Both the position numbers and the translations under genes were made by a program. A stretch of 37,036 nt of DNA from Clostridia bacterium (GTDB lineage: Bacteria; Bacillota; Sulfobacillia; RBS10-35; JAJYVM01): assembly GCA_027314765.1 (NCBI GenBank), contig DAHVAF010000135.1:1-37036 (forward strand). Direction: 5' to 3'. This document shows positions 23,898-33,856 of the stretch, piece by piece. Position 1 is the first letter of the stretch, and each line of letters starts with the position of its first letter. The notes under the pieces were generated by a model, which was not told the origin of the DNA, made no database searches, and was given only the letters and a program-made list of their open reading frames with translations.

Positions 23898-25810
23898 CAG
23901 GCGCTCCCCCCCTCGGCCGGGCGGGTGCGGCCACGGGGGCGCGGGCCGTCCGGATGCAGCGCGCCGTTGCGGTTCCCGGGGCCGGAGGACTCCGGACCCC
24001 GTCCCCGGCCAGGCGCGGCCCGACCCTCCCCCGCGCCACCGCGCCCGGGGAGGTCGTGGGCGCCGCTGCCCCCGGCCGCAAGGGCGTCGCGGTCGCGGAA
24101 CTGCACCTCATAGATGGCCCGGTACATCCCGTCGGCGCGCAGGAGATCCTCGTGGGTCCCGCGCTCGACGATCCGGCCGTCGTCCATCACCAGGATCTCG
24201 TCCGCCCGCCGCAGGCTGCTGATCCGGTGGGCGATGACAAACGTCGTCCGCCCGTCCATCACCTGCCGCAGCGCCTGCTGGATCTCGTATTCCGTCTCCA
24301 TGTCCACGCTGCTGGTGGCGTCGTCAAGGATCAGGACCCGCGGGTCGCAGACCACGGCCCGCGCCAGGGCCACGCGCTGCTTCTGGCCGCCGGAGAGGCC
24401 CAGCCCGCGCTCGCCGACGATCGTGTCGTAACGGTCGGGCAGCTCGGTGATGAACGCGTGCGCCTGCGCGACGCGCGCGGCGCGCTCGATGTCTTCGTCG
24501 CTGGCGTCCATGCGGCCGAAGGCGATGTTCTCCCGCAGGCTGGCCGAGAAGAGGAACGTCTCCCCCAGGACCACGCCGATCGAGCGCCGCAGGCTCTGGA
24601 GGGTGAAGTCGCGGACGTCGCGCCCGTCGACCGTCACCCGGCCGCCCGTCGCCTCGTAAAAGCGCGGGATCAACCCGACCAGGGACGACTTGCCCGAGCC
24701 GGTGGTTCCGAGCAGGGCGATCACGGAGCCGGCCGGGGCGTCGAGGTCAATCCCGCGCAGGACCGGATGGCCGCGGTCGTAGGCGAAATCCACGTGCTCG
24801 AAGCGCACGTCTCCGCGGACGCTCTCCACCGTCACCGCATGCGGACGGTCGGCGATGTCGCGGGGCGAGTCCAGCAGCTCCAGCAGGCGCTCGCCGCCGG
24901 CGGCGGCCTGAGAGAGCAGGTTGATCAGATAGCCCAGCTCCGTGACGGGCCAGATCAGGTAGCCCACCAGGCTGAAGAAGGCCACGAGGTCGCCGAGCGA
25001 CAGCTGGTTTGCGATCACCATCCGCCCGCCGTACCAGAGCAGCAGGACGGTGCCCAGATTGGAGATCAGCTGCATCAGCGGCCAGTACGTGGCCTGATAG
25101 TCCTGGGCCACGATGTTGGTGCGGGCGTACCCCTCATTGCGCTCGCCGAACTTGTCAAGCTCGTGCGGCTCGCGGGCGAAGGACTTCACCGTGCGGATGC
25201 CGGTCAGGTTCTCCTGCACCACGGTCGAGAGGTCGGAGTACGCCTCGCGGATGGCGCTGTAGGCCGGGCGCACGTAGCGGTCGAACTGGCGCACCGTGAT
25301 GGCGATGCACGGCGAGAGGATCAGGGTGACCAGCGTCAGGCGCGCGTTGATCGTCAACATCGCCACGAGCCCGAATCCGTAGGAGAAGAAAAAGTCCGTG
25401 GTGTCGGTGACGCCCTCGGTGAGGAAGGTGCGGAAGGCCTCGATGTCCCCCGTCAGCCGCGACATGAGGTCGCCGGTGCTCTGGTGGTCGTAGAACTTGA
25501 ACGAGACGTACTGCAGGTGCTGGTACAGCGCGTTGCGGATGTCGTAGATGACCTTCTGTCCGAACAGCTCGCCGCAGTACTGGCGCGTGTAGTTGAAGAC
25601 GCCGCGGACCAGGGCCACCGCCAGCACCGCCAGGCTCAGGGTCCAGAGCAGGCCGAAGTCTCCCGCGGTGATCACGCGGTCGATCAGCTGCTCAAGCAGA
25701 AACGGGCGGACCAGGCCGGCCGCGGTCAGCAGCCCCATGCTGATGACGCTGACGTACAGCGTGCGGCGATAGGGCCACCAGAACTGCTTCAGGCGGCGGA
25801 AAACCCACAC
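23897..25810 (-). CDS. ABC exporter half-transporter, degenerate-Walker-B subunit
   Basis: A 637-residue ABC exporter subunit, first gene of the pair. The membrane domain begins near FRRLKQFWWPYRRTLYV and includes SFKFYDHQSTGDLMSRLTGD. The ATPase has Walker A GTTGSGKSS, the consensus signature LSGGQKQRVALARA, and Walker B LILDDATSSVD with Asp where the catalytic Glu should be. This matches TM287/BmrC-like subunits, giving one degenerate and one active ATP site in the dimer. A Gly/Pro/Arg-rich tail of about 60 residues ends the protein. GTG 25810 is chosen because the family pattern starts there. Upstream in-frame codons are Arg/Pro-rich and unlike the family. The ribosome site is weak. Confidence 0.92.
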   Translation of the reverse strand: MWVFRRLKQFWWPYRRTLYVSVISMGLLTAAGLVRPFLLEQLIDRVITAGDFGLLWTLSLAVLAVALVRGVFNYTRQYCGELFGQKVIYDIRNALYQHLQYVSFKFYDHQSTGDLMSRLTGDIEAFRTFLTEGVTDTTDFFFSYGFGLVAMLTINARLTLVTLILSPCIAITVRQFDRYVRPAYSAIREAYSDLSTVVQENLTGIRTVKSFAREPHELDKFGERNEGYARTNIVAQDYQATYWPLMQLISNLGTVLLLWYGGRMVIANQLSLGDLVAFFSLVGYLIWPVTELGYLINLLSQAAAGGERLLELLDSPRDIADRPHAVTVESVRGDVRFEHVDFAYDRGHPVLRGIDLDAPAGSVIALLGTTGSGKSSLVGLIPRFYEATGGRVTVDGRDVRDFTLQSLRRSIGVVLGETFLFSASLRENIAFGRMDASDEDIERAARVAQAHAFITELPDRYDTIVGERGLGLSGGQKQRVALARAVVCDPRVLILDDATSSVDMETEYEIQQALRQVMDGRTTFVIAHRISSLRRADEILVMDDGRIVERGTHEDLLRADGMYRAIYEVQFRDRDALAAGGSGAHDLPGRGGAGEGRAAPGRGRGPESSGPGNRNGALHPDGPRPRGRTRPAEGGSA

Positions 25811-26372
25811 GGGAGCGCAACGACCCCCAAACCCAGGAAGCTTCGGCGGAGCGGAGCGAGGTCCTGCCGATCTATCGGCTGCGGAGGCCGGAATGGCGAG
25901 GCGCGAGCGCCGAAAGGCCCGTGGCTGCCGGCCGTGCCGATCCGGCCGCCAGGGGGCTGCGGGCCGGACCGGCCGAGGCGGGGGGCGGTCGCCAAGCCGC
26001 ACGGCACATCCCGGGGGAGGCTGACGCCGCTGGTGACGATCGATGCGGCGCTCGGCGCCTGCAGAACCACGAGCCCGGCCGCCAGGTGCGCGACCCGGTG
26101 GAGGTCACGGTGGCCAGAGCGAAGGGCGCTGGCCACACGCCAGGCCCCGAGGGCCTGCGCCGGGACGCCGACGGCCGCCGTCGCATCGAGCGGCTTGCCT
26201 CGACCGAGCCGTCGGATTACCTCGCCCGCGCCTGCAGCCGGGCGCCACAAGCCCGAGCGCCGCGACGCGAAGGGCGAAGGCCACGAGGGTCGCGCCCTGC
26301 AGGGGGGTGGGCACCACCGGGCCATTACGGAGCGGTCAGATGCCGCAGCCGCCCCGCCCGGAGCCGGTGTTG
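25811..26372. other. Gene-free stretch upstream of the ABC pair
   Basis: About 560 bp of GC-rich sequence with no convincing gene. The minus strand stays open for 178 codons (26325-25789) with segments such as ALGAWRVASAL and HRVAHLAAGLVVLQ that faintly recall membrane helices of heme A synthase. Composition is otherwise Arg/Pro/Ala-rich, helix-like pieces fall in different frames, and no start context supports a gene. It probably holds the ABC operon promoter, but no clear -35/-10 pair was seen. Confidence 0.5.
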
Positions 26373-26857
26373 GTCACGAGCGTTCCGCTGGCCGTCACAA
26401 GCCGCAGCCCAACGGCGTCCGGGGCGAACGCGTGGCGACGACGGGGCCCAACCCGACGCCGTCATCAGCACCTTCGTGGCGACGTCGGGGCCAGGCCGAC
26501 GGGGTCACGAGGGATTCTGCGGCGATCACGAGCCGCAGCCCGACGGCGTCACGAGCGACCCCACGGCGGTCACGAGCCGCAACCCGCTGGCCGCACGAGC
26601 GACCCCCCAGCGGTCACGAGCCACAGCCCGACGGCGTCATCGGCAACCTCGTGGCGACGATGAGGCCTAGCCCGACGGGGTCATCAGCGACCCACGGCGG
26701 TCACCAGCCGCAGCCGGACGGCCGCACGAGCGACCCACCGCGGCCACCAGCCGCAGCCGGACGGCGTCATCAGCAACCTCGTGGCGACGACGGGGCCCAG
26801 CCCGAGAGCGTCACGACGAGCGCCCCCCACGGCGACCACGAGCCGCAGCCCGACGGG
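26373..26857. repeat. Tandem array of eleven 44-bp units in two classes
   Basis: Unit starts are at about 26373, 26417, 26461, 26504, 26548, 26593, 26636, 26680, 26724, 26766 and 26810; lengths are 42-48 and the mean is 44.1. Most begin GTCA(C/T)(G/C)AGC. Class A units are two diverged halves sharing GTCACGAGC and end GCAGCCCGACGGC. Class B units (26417, 26461, 26636, 26766) carry CGTGGCGACGA and GGGGCC before GCCCGACGGG. The order is A-B-B-A-A-A-B-A-A-B-A. Since 44 is not divisible by three, each unit shifts frame, so it is not a protein repeat. There are no spacers, so it is not CRISPR. Confidence 0.85.
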
Positions 26858-26941
26858 GTCGTCAGATCCGCGAGGATACGCAGCGGCCGCTCGGCGCGTC
26901 CGCTCCCCTCACCGGGCCGCTCAGAGCCACCGCCCCGCCGC

Positions 26942-27391
26942 TCAGAGCCCGATCGCCTTGAACATGTTGGTGGTCGAGCCGGACGGGAAGATCACATAGA
27001 GCATCAGGAAGACCATGAGCCCCGAGCCCGCCGCCACCAGCCACAGCGTGGCCGTCCACGGGGCGATGCGCCGGTGGCGCGCGAAGTCCTTGCGCAGGGC
27101 CCAGCGGATGGTGAGGATGCCCATCACGCCGGCCACCGTGGCCAGCACGGTGTGGATCTGCAGGAAGATCAGGTACGGCGCGCGCCAAGCCGTGGGCCCG
27201 CCGAAGGCGGTGTCTCCCACAAGGAGCGTGTGGAGGGCGTAGCTGAGGAAGAAGGCCAGGCCGAACGCGGCGGCGGTGAGCATCGCCCGCCGGTGGCGCG
27301 CGATCTGCCGCCGGCGGATGAGACCCCACCCGATCGCCACCGCCACGGCGCTGGCGATCATGCAGGCCTCGTTCAGGATGGCGATGATCAT
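26942..27391 (-). CDS. DUF420 membrane protein (CtaM/YozB-like oxidase accessory)
   Basis: A 149-residue protein with about four membrane helices and the conserved His residues of DUF420: RRRQIARHRRAMLTAA, SYALHTLLVGDTAFGG, FLQIHTVLATVAGV and DFARHRRIAPWTATLWL. Staphylococcal CtaM, of this family, is needed for active aa3-type oxidase, so a role in oxidase maturation is likely. The ATG overlaps the ctaB stop as ATGA. It is the last gene of the cta operon. The longer open frame upstream lies inside ctaB. Downstream lies the repeat array, and no terminator was identified. Confidence 0.9.
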   Translation of the reverse strand: MIIAILNEACMIASAVAVAIGWGLIRRRQIARHRRAMLTAAAFGLAFFLSYALHTLLVGDTAFGGPTAWRAPYLIFLQIHTVLATVAGVMGILTIRWALRKDFARHRRIAPWTATLWLVAAGSGLMVFLMLYVIFPSGSTTNMFKAIGL

Positions 27392-32469: not shown

Positions 32470-33804
32470 GTGCGCGCCAATCCCCGAATCCTGGCTGTCT
32501 ACCTTGCGGGCGTCTTCATCGGGTCCCTGGACACGAACGTCCTGGGCCCGGTGCTGCCGAGCATCGCCCGCGGCCTGCACGTCTCCTTCGCGTGGACCGC
32601 CTGGACCGTGACCGCCTACATGGTCGCCTATGTCACATCCACGGCCATCGCGGGCGCCAGCGGCGACCGCTACGGCCGCCACCGCCTGTTCATGATCGGC
32701 ATCGCCGGCTTCGGCGCCGCCTCGCTCCTGGCCGCCCTGGCGCAGGGCTTCGGCACCTTCGTGCTGGCGCGCGTGATCCAGGGCACCGCGGCCGGCCTCG
32801 TCTACCCGAACGCGATGGCCCAGGGCACCGACCAGTTCCCACCCGAGCGGCGCGGCGCCGCCCTCGGCCTCTTCGGCGCCTTCTTCGGCCTGGCCACCAT
32901 CGTCGGGCCCAACGTCGGCGGCGCCCTCGGCCAGTACGTGGGCTGGCAGTCCATCTTCTGGGTCAACGTGCCCCTGGCCCTGATCGTGCTGGGCATGGCC
33001 CGCGGCCTGCCGAGCGGCCGCAGGGCCGCGCCCGCCGTGCCCGACTGGCTGGGCGGCCGGGGCTTCGCCGGGTTCCTCGCGGCCCTGCTGCTCGTCATCA
33101 GCACCGGCCAGCCGCTCATCGCCGTGGCCGGCGCCGCCTGCCTGGCCCTCTTCCTGGCCCGCCAGCGGCGCGCGGCCCGGCCGTTCATCGACGCCACCCC
33201 GCTGCGCAACCCGTCCGGCGTGGCGGTGATCGCGGGGGCGGCCCTGGTCGGCTACGACCTCGCCGCCGCCGTGTTCGTGCCCACCCTGGCGCAGCAGGCC
33301 CTGCACTTCAGCATCCTCGACTCGGGCCTGGCCCTGATGCCGGCCGCGATCTCGGGCGCCGTGCTGGCCGGCGTCGCCGGCGTCATGGCCGACCGCGTCG
33401 GCCCCCGCATCCTCCTGCAGATCGGCATGCTGGCGGCCGTCGCCGGCGGCCTGCTCCTGTCCCTGCCCCACCTGACGCTGGTCGCGTTCTTCACGGCGAT
33501 GGTGCTGTTCGGGGTCGCCACCTCGCTCACGCTCAGCGCGCCGCTCAACCGCCTCGGCATGGCCCTTTACCGCGACGAGCAGTCCGCGGAGGCGCTCTCG
33601 CTGATGGCGGTGTTCCGCTCCGTCGGCCTGGCCGCCGGCGCCGTCCTGATGACCCTGGCCCTGGCCTGGCGCGGCTTCCCGGCCATGTTCGGCAGCGTGG
33701 CCCTGGCCTCGCTGCTCGGCGCCGTGGCCTTCACCGTCGTGCCCGACGTCCGTCCCGCCCCGCGAAGGATCGGGCGGGTTCCGCCCGCACGATCGCGGGC
33801 TTAA
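32470..33804 (+). CDS. MFS exporter, DHA2 (EmrB/QacA-like) type
   Basis: A 444-residue multi-helix proton-linked exporter. It begins ILAVYLAGVFIGSLDTNVLG, with the membrane-buried Asp of DHA2 members. It has motif A as GDRYGRHRLFMIG and motif C around GPNVGGALGQYVGW, followed by FWVNVPLALIV. Drug or metabolite efflux is likely; the substrate is unknown. GTG 32470 is used because GGAGG lies 10 bases upstream. The last 13 residues and the stop codon lie in the first copy of a 38-bp tandem duplication, so the C-terminal RVPPARSRA tail is a by-product of that repeat. It is divergent from the cta operon. Confidence 0.9.
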   Translation: MRANPRILAVYLAGVFIGSLDTNVLGPVLPSIARGLHVSFAWTAWTVTAYMVAYVTSTAIAGASGDRYGRHRLFMIGIAGFGAASLLAALAQGFGTFVLARVIQGTAAGLVYPNAMAQGTDQFPPERRGAALGLFGAFFGLATIVGPNVGGALGQYVGWQSIFWVNVPLALIVLGMARGLPSGRRAAPAVPDWLGGRGFAGFLAALLLVISTGQPLIAVAGAACLALFLARQRRAARPFIDATPLRNPSGVAVIAGAALVGYDLAAAVFVPTLAQQALHFSILDSGLALMPAAISGAVLAGVAGVMADRVGPRILLQIGMLAAVAGGLLLSLPHLTLVAFFTAMVLFGVATSLTLSAPLNRLGMALYRDEQSAEALSLMAVFRSVGLAAGAVLMTLALAWRGFPAMFGSVALASLLGAVAFTVVPDVRPAPRRIGRVPPARSRA

Positions 33805-33840
33805 GGATGGGGCGGGTTCCGCCCGCACGATCGCGGGTTT
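33765..33840 (+). repeat. 38-bp tandem duplication at the MFS/MBL junction
   Basis: Two copies (33765-33802 and 33803-33840) match at 36 of 38 bases, and the first bases of a third copy (AAAGGA) follow. Each copy contains the small hairpin GGGCGG-GTT-CCGCCC. Copy one encodes the end of the MFS gene; the sequence just after copy two forms the ribosome site AAAGGAGG of the next gene. It could also act as a pair of stabilising or attenuating hairpins between two cotranscribed genes. Confidence 0.85.
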
Positions 33841-33856
33841 AAAGGAGGGCCACCGC

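Follow-up and report, generated by a model that had tools for sequence, protein, structure and literature searches.

Locus and structure of the repeat array

The window (the whole stretch of DNA that was analysed, 37,036 nucleotides) comes from an uncultured high-GC Bacillota bacterium. Within it, a 1.13-kb gap separates two minus-strand genes identified by Pfam, i.e., a DUF420 gene (PF04238; 26942–27391, stop at 26942) that closes the cta operon and the leading member of a pair of ABC exporter genes (PF00664/PF00005; 23897–25810, start ~25810). The gap holds about eleven weathered 44-bp repeats. This array is ~490 bp long, starts ~80 bp past the DUF420 stop, and has its other end ~560 bp from the exporter start.

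Units were cut at the conserved CAGCCCGACGGCGTC for splitting and alignment. Ten full units of 43–48 bp (26405–26845, no strand assigned; mean spacing 44.1 bp) were delimited by Tandem Repeats Finder (TRF), unit alignment and the identity matrix, and each edge carries one partial unit, likewise unstranded. The left partial unit (26373–26404) belongs to class A (see below), based on the D1/D2 repeat-family register and self-match lags, and the right one (CAGCCCGACGGGGTCGTCAG; 26846 to ~26862–26865) was placed by unit splitting and a weak profile match (E 0.011). Units start at 26405, 26449, 26492, 26536, 26580, 26624, 26668, 26711, 26754, 26798, and 26846, with 43, 44 and 48 bp as the distances between starts. 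TRF reported periods of 44, 88, and 130; its best row (26521–26856) scored 426 and its period-44 row (26492–26860) scored 280. When the gap was dinucleotide-shuffled 200 times, the top score was 77 versus the real 426, confirming the period-44 tandem array that a preliminary description of this DNA had claimed.

GC content by codon phase showed no coding signal from ~25800 to 26940 and a strong one in both flanking genes, and no Pfam matches were found in ORFs across the gap region. The array had been described as non-coding, which is borne out by the lack of a GC-by-phase signal and by a period that is not a multiple of three; a coding repeat protein is ruled out on the same grounds. The locus thus has the features of a minisatellite, with head-to-tail units in the range of ~10–100 bp, a repeat signal above chance (TRF versus shuffles), and a position outside coding sequence (GC phase, Pfam). 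Across the array and the adjoining gap (25811–26862), the plus strand has an excess of A (16–18%) over T (8%).

RNA folds of the array were at the level of shuffled sequence (z = 0.26 for the minus strand and −1.24 for the other strand), as were those of single units (z = 0.3 to 1.0). The array region had no Rfam match and no tRNA. An array of hairpins or structured RNAs is ruled out, given folds no better than those of shuffled sequence and the missing Rfam match.

Unit classes and internal duplications

The identity matrix separates the units into two classes, with average identities of 76% within class A, 81% within class B, and 62% between them. The between-class identity is 70% in the first half-unit and 53% in the second, and pairwise unit identities span 52–91%. 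Class B units carry the segment CGTGGCGACGA-GGGGCC (at 26431, 26475, 26650, and 26780). The two interleaved classes of the preliminary description are therefore real, with their difference mostly in the second half-unit, and the order given there (A-B-B-A-A-A-B-A-A-B-A) is matched by a partial A followed by B B A A A B A A B A. Unit splitting and the repeat register also agreed with its coordinates, period, and B segment.

Self-match lags were strongest at 44, 130–131, and 175 bp, corresponding to one, three, and four units, in line with the growth by block duplication that had been proposed. Because the order after the partial A reads B/BAAA/BAA/BA, the duplicated blocks were headed by B units. 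None of the units is recent, since even the closest pair (B3/B4) is only 91% identical. A sub-period of 20–23 bp, weaker than the 44-bp period, suggests that the array had a half-unit (~22-bp) ancestor. The better conservation of the first half across classes is explained by a chimeric origin of class B, and selection on the first half could be another source of it.

Sister-species locus and other arrays of the genome

The synteny comparison was made with a single genome of the same genus (G001; gap on contig L006), in which the locus has the same gene order and proteins 84–91% identical to those here. Its gap is only 556 bp long and was found to lack the array. A 42-bp block common to both gaps (26027–26068, minus strand; 81% identity) anchors the comparison, and the distance from the DUF420 stop to this block is 252 bp in the sister species versus 874 bp here. 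The array (490 bp) and a ylzJ fragment (93 bp) together account for nearly all of the ~620-bp excess, so both were either gained here or lost in the sister species, two histories that a comparison with one same-genus genome does not separate. The sister gap has a 41-bp repeat of its own (~two copies), across the 42-bp block from the DUF420 side; this is a different, short repeat in another place and not the same array.

The ylzJ fragment (26154–26246, plus strand; PF14035) derives from the 3′ part of the gene and is truncated as well as frameshifted by a one-base deletion. The intact gene is carried by contig C316, and the fragment matches it at 95% identity. The fragment lies 127 bp from the array, and the sister gap lacks it too. 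An 18-bp direct repeat (89%) flanks the fragment at 26119–26136 and 26267–26284. A Ku domain was found in the genome, so the fragment may have been captured by end joining.

The preliminary description had proposed searching for the consensus in this genome and its relatives; as carried out on the own genome and the syntenic gap of the sister species, the search found no second copy in the former and no array in the latter. Two short matches to the unit (in C155 and C48) were at shuffle level, and the better one (35 bp of a C155 gene) was equalled in 6 out of 100 shuffles when only about a seventh of the genome was searched. With no other genomic loci for its unit, the array is not a member of a dispersed family of the MIRU type.

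The genome, a fragmented metagenome-assembled genome (MAG), contains many other arrays: 33 with a TRF score of at least 100 in 624 kb, mostly intergenic. Densities were compared on sampled contigs rather than whole genomes, counting only inner, non-coding arrays with a TRF score of at least 200. The own genome had 17 such strong arrays in 624 kb (27/Mb, contig sample), versus 4.8/Mb in the sister species (contig sample), 5.0/Mb in a closed genome from the same class with matching GC content (binomial p = 0.007 versus own), none in three genomes of the same order (235 kb sampled; p = 0.004), and 5.4/Mb in the named controls (p = 0.0003). The percent match of the own-genome arrays ranges from 75 to 98, with the focal array at 81%, a spread that seems to reflect successive births and decays, with the focal array towards the old end. 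The many arrays might be put down to lost mismatch repair, but this is unsupported, as mutS and mutL domains are both present. At four loci (L127:5438–5681, L134:7278–7492, L135:7018–7168, and L143:15142–15427), the array edges overlap the ends of neighbouring genes, as if gene ends had been duplicated in tandem.

The units of these arrays are mostly unrelated to one another, the main exceptions being two hairpin families. The first is a palindromic repeat of 36–38 bp (TGAACCCGCTCGCGCGCGGATGACCGCGCGCTCC) with an 8-bp stem (fold z = −2.7 to −4.0), which has ~35 matches in the own genome, is also present in the sister species, and often forms head-to-tail arrays (L158:12974–13260, L098:12927–13182, L188:9527–9843, L139:2344–2419, and L090:5593–5661). 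A search for a Y1 (RAYT) transposase behind this family found none. The second (GGATCGCACGGGTTCC-CCCGTGCGATTGC; period 38–40 bp) is common to both genomes of the genus, with loci at 33765–33842 of the window, L096:13801–13956, and L151:5687–5764. A link between the focal array and the 36–38-bp family is ruled out, as the two share no sequence match.

Origin of the array

The array is very probably a degenerate, lineage-specific intergenic minisatellite that grew by repeated local duplication and most likely has no dedicated function. A ~22-bp stretch would have been duplicated to give the 44-bp unit, class B would have come from a variant second half, and duplications of one, three, and four units at a time would have followed, through replication slippage or unequal recombination. 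The array would have arisen or survived in this species alone, in the same gap that took in the broken ylzJ, and later divergence would have proceeded by point mutation without recent homogenisation. We infer that the array is neutral. The roles proposed in the preliminary description, as a binding array, a chromosomal landmark, or a transcription barrier, found no support in a sister gap without the array, a unit without a second copy in the genome, RNA folds at shuffle level, and a genome with many unrelated intergenic arrays.

Among the alternatives, a protein-binding array, with one protein per 44-bp unit on one face of the DNA that controls the exporter or shapes the local chromosome, is unlikely. 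A phased period of about four helical turns, a first half-unit better kept across classes, and a long gap immediately upstream of the exporter gene all speak for it, but the uneven spacings (43, 44, and 48 bp), the wide range of unit identities, the distance of the array end from the exporter start, the array-free sister gap, and a unit that recurs in the genome only as two short matches at shuffle level argue against it. Also very unlikely is a reading in which the array keeps the two exporter genes insulated from the cta operon by means of phased binding sites that are specific to this species, come in two types, and follow a fixed higher-order pattern. That the array stops transcription behind the cta operon, as a barrier or a zone of termination working through RNA structure or Rho, is highly improbable: it does start shortly past the DUF420 stop, where no intrinsic terminator was found, but its minus-strand RNA folds at shuffle level and has more G than C, the opposite of a typical Rho loading site, and the sister species manages without the array. 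An origin by local amplification of gene remains or of captured gene fragments would fit the real captured ylzJ fragment nearby and the several other arrays that overlap gene ends; however, the ORFs of the region have neither a Pfam match nor coding phase, and the best match, that to the C155 gene, is one that shuffled sequence also reaches, and we regard this origin as highly improbable.

The minisatellite reading can be set against known repeat systems. In the MIRU-VNTR loci of Mycobacterium, intergenic arrays of a high-GC genome, repeats a few tens of bp long follow one another head to tail and have grown by duplication; MIRU units recur at many loci. The array shares their arrangement, unit size, and genomic setting, whereas its unit occurs at one locus only and is strongly diverged. 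To our knowledge, most bacterial intergenic minisatellite or VNTR loci have no demonstrated role. Like the iteron arrays of replication origins, the array has ~22-bp half-units in tandem, but its neighbours are respiratory and transport genes (DUF420/ctaB and the ABC exporters), with no replication initiator gene adjacent. It resembles CRISPR in having regular repeats in a gene gap and differs in that the whole 44 bp is repeated; the units are contiguous without spacers and diverged, so its earlier exclusion from CRISPR holds. A literature search on such arrays returned only general VNTR papers besides one on Burkholderia pseudomallei, which has many, predominantly intergenic, tandem arrays, mostly of 6–9-bp units in 4–10 copies with high variability (PMC1853098). 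Both genomes are rich in intergenic arrays, whereas the array described here has 44-bp units and is old.

A single array of this kind matters little, and its setting matters more. The sampled density of strong arrays is about five times that of GC-matched or related genomes despite the mutS and mutL domains, and the lineage could be used for studying the birth and decay of bacterial minisatellites. At one further locus (L101:9075–9632), several different tandem arrays are packed into a single 1-kb gap between divergent genes.
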